The notes beneath the pieces are model-generated. The model was not told the DNA's origin. It did not search any database and saw only the letters and a program-made list of their open reading frames with translations. A DNA stretch of 64,000 bases from Desulfuromonadales bacterium (GTDB lineage Bacteria > Desulfobacterota > Desulfuromonadia > Desulfuromonadales > BM103): NCBI GenBank assembly GCA_014860225.1, contig JACZKE010000060.1, positions 248,001 to 312,000 on the forward strand, given 5' to 3'. The position numbers were made by a program, and so were the translations under genes. Positions 37,860-40,203 of the stretch are shown here, in pieces. Within the stretch, counting starts at the first letter, position 1. Every line of letters begins with the position of its first letter.

Positions 37860-37946
37860 GCCCGGGTGGCGGAACTGGTAGACGCAAGGGACTTAAAATC
37901 CCTCGGGAGCAATCCTGTACGAGTTCGATTCTCGTCCCGGGTACCA
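37860..37946 (+). tRNA. tRNA-Leu (anticodon TAA)
   Basis: GCCCGGGTGGCGGAACTGGTAGACGCAAGGGACTTAAAATCCC...GAGTTCGATTCTCGTCCCGGGTACCA; class II tRNA, 87 nt with CCA. Confidence 0.95.
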
Positions 37947-38277
37947 TAAGAAGATCAAGGGTTTAGCTTAATTGCTAAGCCTTTTTTCTTTTGCTATAAT
38001 CCTCGGGAAATACCTCTGTGGACCACTGGTGGACCACTAGGCATCAATAAATCACTGTAAACCACCATAAAACTTGGTCCCGTTAGCTTCCAATTTTTGA
38101 TCGTCTGAATCGATGGTTGTCTGTTGAAATCTTCGATAATGAATTGTCGTTTGTGAAATCTTGTGGTCCATGAGTGATCAAATATGAGATTCGTCTTTTG
38201 TAACTATCTAAAAATAAATGAGAAACTGGACTTTGACAAGGGATTTGCTATCTAAAGCATAATTGCTCGGAGGAAGT

Positions 38278-38511
38278 ATGGGCGTTATTTACGAAAGAAA
38301 AACGAAAGAAGGGAAGGTCAATTTCCGCGCGCACGTAAGATTGAAGGGGTATCCTCAACAGGTCGCTACCTTTTCCAGGAAGACTGATGCAAAAAAGTGG
38401 ATACAGGAAACAGAAACATTTATCCGTGATGGACGCTACTTCAAAATTGTTGAGGCAAAAAAACACACATGTAACTTGGCCTTCACCGAACATTCCCGAG
38501 ATTTTGGCTGA
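38278..38511 (+). pseudogene. N-terminal remnant of a phage-type tyrosine integrase next to tRNA-Leu
   Basis: MGVIYERKTKEGKVNFRAHVRLKGYPQQVATFSRKTDAKKWIQETETFIRDGRYFKIVEAKKHT, typical integrase N-terminus, then unrelated sequence and stop. Confidence 0.8.
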
Positions 38512-38728: not shown

Positions 38729-38763
38729 CTAAAGGCCACTCTCCAAAGAGAACGGCCTTTTTC
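38729..38763 (+). terminator. Rho-independent terminator-like hairpin
   Basis: AAAGGCC-ACTCTCCAAAGAGAAC-GGCCTTTTT. Confidence 0.6.
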
Positions 38764-38805: not shown

Positions 38806-38952
38806 CTAGTTGAACATCTTGGCACCGAGATAAGCCAGGGCTGGCCAAGCAATCAAAACAGCGGAGACAAAAGCAAAGACGCCAAGGACACCCATGATAG
38901 CGATTGTGTAGCTGGCTTTTACATTGTTGAGGATATTGGCTGCGGTTGTCAT
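38806..38952 (-). CDS. 48-aa single-TM microprotein (paralog A), absent from ORF track
   Basis: MTTAANILNNVKASYTIAIMGVLGVFAFVSAVLIAWPALAYLGAKMFN*; upstream GGAGAAACGCC; 28/48 identical to the adjacent paralog. Confidence 0.85.
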   Translation of the reverse strand: MTTAANILNNVKASYTIAIMGVLGVFAFVSAVLIAWPALAYLGAKMFN

Positions 38953-39000
38953 GGCGTTTCTCCTATGGTTTCTCCCACCGGGTGAGAGGGTTGGTTAAAG

Positions 39001-39147
39001 TTAGTTAAAAAGCTTCGAGCCGATGTAAGCAAGTGCCGGCCAGGCGATCAGTACGGCCGAGATGAAAGCGAAAATCCCGAGCATGGCAATGACCAGAACC
39101 AGGTAACTACTTTTCACATTATCCATAAAGCGGCTTTGAGTTTTCAT
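39001..39147 (-). CDS. 48-aa single-TM microprotein (paralog B), absent from ORF track
   Basis: MKTQSRFMDNVKSSYLVLVIAMLGIFAFISAVLIAWPALAYIGSKLFN*; strong SD AGGAGGACGTC before ATG. Confidence 0.87.
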   Translation of the reverse strand: MKTQSRFMDNVKSSYLVLVIAMLGIFAFISAVLIAWPALAYIGSKLFN

Positions 39148-39528
39148 GACGTCCTCCTGATCGATTTGGTTTGTGAGTTGTTCCTCACTGTTGATTAAAC
39201 TTTTACCATTAGAAATACATCATGTCAACAATAAAAGTTAAAATATTTTCATATTGCTTAACTTATTTGCAATAGACTGTTTTTACAGAGTTATTCTCAT
39301 AATAAATTAACCACTAAGGAGACAGGACGACATTCCTTAGAATTAATTTCCAGGTTTATTAGAGACATTAGGTCATGCTGATCGCGTATGGCGTAGTGTT
39401 GCGCAGGAGAAAATCAGGAGTGACGCGTATCTCCCCCTGGGAAAGAACCTGTACTGAGACCACACCACAAGAAAAAAAACCCACAGACTTCACGGCACAC
39501 ATATGCATGGACCACTCATCAATATTAC

Positions 39529-39594: not shown

Positions 39595-40203
39595 ATGACA
39601 CGCAGAGAAACGCTCCTGGATGCAGCAATCGCGCTGTTTGCGGAAAAAGGCTACAACGGGACCTCTACCAGCGAAATTGTAGAAAAAGCCGGGGTTGCCC
39701 AAGGCACCCTGTTTTACCATTTCAAGAACAAGGAAGGGATGCTCCTGACCATTCTCGAAAATATCCTGAATGAATACCTGCAGGACATGGAAGAGGTTGC
39801 ATCAGTTACTCAGAGCGGTCTGATGACTGTCGAAAACCTGATCAGGTGCAGCACCCATTTTCGGCAGACCCGGTCCCTGGAACTGCTCGTGCTGATGCGT
39901 GATTTTCCTGCTGACCTCATCAAGCCAGATTCACCCCAAATGATGTTCATTATCGAGTTTTTTAAGCGATTCTACGATCTATTTAAAAACGCTATTGACC
40001 GGGGACAAAAAGACGGCTCAATCAGAAAAATATCCAGCGAGAAATATACCCACATACTGTTGGGTATGCTCAGCGGGATGGATCGCCATATCCTGCTTGG
40101 CCCGCTGCCTACACCAGCATTGACTGAAGAGATTGTCAGTTTTTGTTGCAGTGCCCTTTCCCCCCCAGGGATCGACCCTGTGTCCCACGAACGGAGGTCA
40201 TAG
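39595..40203 (+). CDS. TetR/AcrR-family transcriptional regulator
   Basis: TRRETLLDAAIALFAEKGYNGTSTSEIVEKAGVAQGTLFYHFKNKEGMLLTIL. Confidence 0.95.
   Translation: MTRRETLLDAAIALFAEKGYNGTSTSEIVEKAGVAQGTLFYHFKNKEGMLLTILENILNEYLQDMEEVASVTQSGLMTVENLIRCSTHFRQTRSLELLVLMRDFPADLIKPDSPQMMFIIEFFKRFYDLFKNAIDRGQKDGSIRKISSEKYTHILLGMLSGMDRHILLGPLPTPALTEEIVSFCCSALSPPGIDPVSHERRS

Follow-up and report, generated by a model that had tools for sequence, protein, structure and literature searches.

Introduction

CydX/CbdX is a single-span protein of ~40-50 amino acids encoded beside a quinol-oxidising membrane enzyme, the cytochrome bd oxidase. AcrZ, at ~49 amino acids, is a single helix with an internal proline, and the type I toxins Ldr, Hok and Ibs are small, hydrophobic, multi-copy peptides. 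The microproteins described here were found as a tandem pair in a 64,000-nucleotide stretch of a Desulfuromonadales genome (the window, meaning the whole stretch that was analysed). They share with CydX/CbdX the single span, the length of ~40-50 residues and the position beside a quinol-oxidising membrane enzyme, but they adjoin ImcH/CbcL, often as tandem hetero-pairs, with a promoter of their own and in several copies; the recurrent neighbours are ImcH, NrfD and CbcL and not cytochrome bd, and there is no significant Pfam or NCBIfam match. They resemble AcrZ in its ~49 residues and its single helix with an internal proline, but have no homology to it by Pfam or NCBIfam matching and no conserved RND linkage. 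Like the type I toxins they are small, hydrophobic and multi-copy, whereas they show class-wide purifying selection and linkage to respiratory genes, and no antisense partner was found.

Passages of two published accounts describe ImcH and CbcL as quinol oxidases of extracellular electron transfer (PMC6295460, PMC4914508), and the architectures given in one of them match the cytochromes found here (PMC6295460). The other deals with the ImcH and CbcL of Desulfuromonas soudanensis WTL (PMC4914508). Where those passages treat the neighbourhoods of the two cytochromes, they mention no adjoining microprotein gene (PMC6295460, PMC4914508), and a literature search found no paper describing these ORFs.

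Two small membrane protein genes

Both ORFs lie on the minus strand, 48 bp apart. ORF B (39001..39147, 48 aa, MKTQSRFMDNVKSSY...AWPALAYIGSKLFN) is the first gene of the pair and has homologs across the class, and ORF A (38806..38952, 48 aa, MTTAANILNNVKASY...AWPALAYLGAKMFN) is the second and has homologs across the window's taxonomic family. A sequence-only reading of this DNA had described the two 48-residue frames, an identity of 28 in 48 residues and a Shine-Dalgarno sequence at each. The translations match exactly, the same identity (58%) was counted, and the ribosome-binding sites were located upstream of both: AGGAGG at 39153..39158 (-), 5 nt from the ATG of ORF B, and AGGAG ~7-8 nt 5' of the ATG of ORF A. 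That reading had also proposed selection on the protein sequence of the paralogs. Median pairwise dN/dS, from 15-16 copies, is 0.07 for ORF B and 0.08 for ORF A, far from the value near 1 that it had named as counting against it, and both are therefore protein-coding genes under strong constraint. Given this constraint, the further pairs in the host and the copies in relatives, ORFs A and B are genuine genes and not chance reading frames.

The proposal of a single-span small membrane protein agrees with structure prediction, which gives one membrane span. An AlphaFold2 model (36 aligned members, mean pLDDT 84) consists of one helix that breaks at residue 35, where the conserved WP stands, within a family core of the form G-x-x-A...A-W-P-A-L-x-[Y/H]-[I/L]...K. 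In most members the N-terminus has more K and R than acidic residues; the C-terminus is short and usually carries a single K or R. This mostly N-terminal charge suggests an N-in/C-out topology.

The predicted transcription unit and its surroundings

The predicted promoter of the pair (39200..39228, minus strand) has the -35 element TTGACA (39228-39223), a 17-bp spacer and the extended -10 element TG-G-TAAAAG (39205-39200). A generic promoter scan did not list it because the -10 element lacks the final T, but its sequence hardly varies between pairs that stand in unrelated genomic contexts. A conserved, UP-element-like AT-rich block, ATGAAAATATTTTAACTTTTATTG (39229..39252, minus strand), immediately precedes the -35 element, and a conserved operator-like core, CTAATGGTAAAAGTTTAATCAA (39191..39212, minus strand), overlaps the -10 element and the predicted start site. 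The order upstream of pairs is AT-rich block, TTGACA, 17 bp, TGn-TAAAAn, TTTAATCAA and a leader ending in AGGAGG. A search of the whole host genome for the operator-like core, with up to 3 mismatches, returned the upstream regions of the three pairs only, and a wider regulon through this element was rejected on that ground. The folding of the ORF B leader is ordinary (z -0.5), and no structured RNA or Rfam element was found in it. An intrinsic terminator with a 13-bp stem, AAAGGCC...GGCCTTT, follows the pair (38731..38760, minus strand), and similar terminators lie 3' of several other family copies. The unit in the window's taxonomic family thus consists of a strong predicted promoter, ORF B, ORF A and a terminator, duplicated to several sites.

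On the plus strand nearby are a tRNA-Leu gene (37860-37946) and an 82-aa ORF (38263-38511, MGVIYERKTKEGKVNFRAHVRLKGYPQ...), which we take to resemble the start of a site-specific integrase. The ORF has no Pfam match and no att-site repeat of the tRNA-Leu was found within the window; the two features are a possible island edge.

Distribution and copy number

When 277 sampled genomes of the class were searched with a profile of 50 members, 65 had the family, at 1-6 copies each. Every sampled member of the window's taxonomic family has it, so the homologs in related genomes that the sequence-only reading had called for are present. Across the phylum (395 genomes), the sole match outside the class was marginal and lay inside a 752-aa reading frame. 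Pfam, NCBIfam, PADLOC and a PDB profile search gave no significant match, PHROGs gave isolated weak matches only, and no family match was found in 50,697 phage records or 72,556 plasmid records. By these searches the microproteins are an uncatalogued family, apparently restricted to a single bacterial class, some of whose members are known to respire metals. Related but diverged ORFs adjoin true members at three loci (L129:5234-5593, L130:9507-9707 and L175:4943-5209). They have lost the WPAL motif and have a TAG/AWSxxCxGGA-type end (e.g. ...AAFIAWSFTCAGGALIEVIGKMV), and are possibly a second subfamily.

The host genome has three tandem pairs in all, one in the window and one on each of contigs C40 and C59. 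The pair in the window is one of the dispersed extra copies and has no cytochrome nearby. Within each of three genomes (G001, G002 and G012), the ImcH-site copies match those at a rubrerythrin-linked site at 97.5-100% identity; copies at the same site in different genomes have a mean identity of 77%. Gene conversion or recent re-copying could account for the high identity within genomes. In another genome, G014, a truncated and decayed B-type remnant (MKTQTNFMDTVKSRYLVVIITYDQNR) lies near ImcH (L171:4522-4602), and two identical intact pairs lie elsewhere; the remnant suggests that copies undergo birth and death. Whole-pair duplications with identical protein copies on one contig were seen at L079:5284-6634 and L089:941-4107, in units of ~1 kb and 2.8 kb. 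A REP-like dispersed sequence (AATGGCGTTGCAAAAAGTC...CCTACTGCGTTGCAGCG...) lies just downstream of the microproteins at L041, L043 and L063, in two genomes.

Linkage to ImcH and CbcL

Neighbouring genes were clustered for 92 groups of family loci, with a tblastn check of the key ones on 90. ImcH/NrfD and CbcL are the neighbours that recur. Architecture served to identify both cytochromes: the ImcH-like protein combines a CX3CH motif with further CX2CH motifs and matches NapC/NirT in Pfam, and in the CbcL-like protein a membrane domain comes after nine CX2CH motifs. CbcL or ImcH is no more than 5 kb away at 25 of 51 loci (22 of 27 genomes) outside the window's taxonomic family, and at 10 of 39 loci (10 of 19 genomes) inside it. 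At an assumed chance of 1% per locus, the binomial tail for 25 of 51 is ~2e-36, a figure that overstates independence because the genomes are related.

At the C59 pair of the host, ImcH is 434 bp upstream and divergent, and NrfD is ~100 bp downstream and convergent, followed by a 4Fe-4S protein; at the corresponding ImcH site in relatives a tetraheme cytochrome is usually next. Ten loci have, on one strand, a single microprotein gene, a Zn-ribbon/IS1595-like gene and CbcL. In 8 of these 10 a small gene labelled NifX-like (cluster c6) lies upstream; the c6 protein that was scanned has no Pfam match, and another neighbouring cluster, c21, matches Nitro_FeMo-Co. The intervening Zn-ribbon/IS1595-transposase-like protein (~250 aa; L118, L121, L122, L123, L124, L125, L126, L136, L146 and L149) is possibly a domesticated regulator. 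In three other genomes (G089, G110 and G045) the microprotein gene is less than 300 bp from CbcL.

When the CbcL and microprotein match lists were compared by eye, all 16 of the CbcL matches at least 70% identical to that of G261 had a microprotein ~0.1-1 kb upstream on the same strand. Distances among microproteins and among the adjacent CbcLs are correlated (mirror-tree rho 0.74; Mantel 0/2000 permutations), a signal that can also arise from shared species history. In the CbcL tree, where the CbcLs "without" a microprotein are a small chosen sample, one placement stands out. In G022, a member of the window's order, CbcL is nested among the CbcLs of another order and has the matching microprotein alongside, which suggests that the two were transferred as a cassette. 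Conserved linkage and co-inheritance, as looked for in an accessory protein of ImcH/CbcL, were thus both found.

Many copies, including those of the window, are not near ImcH or CbcL, 11 loci of the window's taxonomic family adjoin a rubrerythrin-like gene instead, and the CbcL of the host itself (C32) has no adjoining family member. In the window's taxonomic family the pairs have their own predicted promoter, outside any cytochrome operon. ImcH and CbcL often occur in one region, and part of the linkage could mirror one ancestral location. Most genomes that encode CbcL or ImcH are without the family, and no hidden members were found at the CbcL/ImcH loci inspected in genomes without a family match; the microprotein is therefore no core subunit.

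Alternative explanations

The sequence-only reading had placed the pair divergent from a TetR-TolC-RND operon and had guessed at an efflux or envelope-stress role. The arrangement is borne out by Pfam, which identifies TetR, OEP, membrane-fusion and AcrB-type genes next to the pair, with the TetR regulator at 39595..40203 (+), outside the pair unit. A small AcrZ-like regulator of the adjoining RND pump would suit this neighbourhood and the length of the microproteins, and one other family locus (L066) is also near an RND-like gene. It is the only one besides the window, and nearly all other loci are without RND neighbours. In 25 relatives no match to the TetR gene reached E<=1e-30, so that among 26 genomes only this one has it, while the microproteins are shared by every sampled member of the taxonomic family. 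The efflux accessory role was rejected on the missing TetR, an envelope-stress role read from the same RND neighbourhood is likewise unsupported, and we consider an AcrZ-like function very improbable. Carriage as a phage holin, lysis protein or mobile-element cargo would account for dispersed, multiple copies and for a tRNA-Leu ~0.9 kb away, but the phage and plasmid records hold no match, the PHROG matches are weak and isolated, and the positions beside ImcH are stable across genera; mobile-element carriage was likewise rejected, and this reading is the hardest to credit. A membrane-acting toxin of a type I toxin-antitoxin system is improbable, if somewhat less so. Size, hydrophobicity, tandem layout and copy number are those of Ldr/Hok-type toxins, but both paralogs are under strong purifying selection and kept class-wide, the leader has no special structure or Rfam match, and the gene upstream of CbcL has an operon-like position.

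With the toxin, efflux and phage readings disfavoured, the serious rival is that selection for dosage has kept these microproteins abundant as general-purpose membrane peptides, of a membrane-stress or lipid-environment kind, and that the ImcH/CbcL linkage is an old location and no partnership. The strong, conserved predicted promoter in all contexts, the several copies per genome, sometimes homogenised within it, and the many copies beside unrelated or rubrerythrin-like genes would all be expected of such peptides. Location alone hardly explains why linkage to CbcL recurs in so many families, why the two genes were inherited together as a cassette in different orders, or why the mirror-tree signal arises, and we regard this reading as possible but not likely.

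Proposed role

The best explanation of the microproteins, because it fits the linkage, the co-inheritance and the predicted topology, is that they span the inner membrane once and act, in particular lineages, as accessory or tuning subunits of ImcH/CbcL-type quinol oxidases, a proposal on which our confidence is evenly balanced. They would serve the multihaem cytochromes ImcH and CbcL, where extracellular electron transfer begins, and probably also the neighbouring NrfD/NapC-type complexes. In an N-in/C-out orientation the conserved W-P-A-L-x-[YH] end would lie close to the periplasmic face of the membrane, the side that the haem domains occupy, and the microproteins may be in physical contact with the cytochromes. 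A and B may act as a hetero-pair whose abundance is kept up by the strong promoter and the extra copies, and the window pair, from its own promoter, would be expected to feed the same membrane pool as the other copies. A bolder version, which is possible but which we would not count as likely, is that the family is dedicated to tuning the ImcH/CbcL quinol oxidases and thereby affects the potential or the efficiency of electron export, with tandem pairs held at high dosage through copy homogenisation in the window's taxonomic family.

At 48 aa a microprotein of this kind is easy to miss, and the family libraries searched do not contain it. The locus is also a case where a guess from the neighbouring operon (efflux) fails and comparative context points elsewhere. 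If the proposal is true, a small protein tied genetically to ImcH and CbcL would offer a testable handle on how these gates are assembled or tuned.
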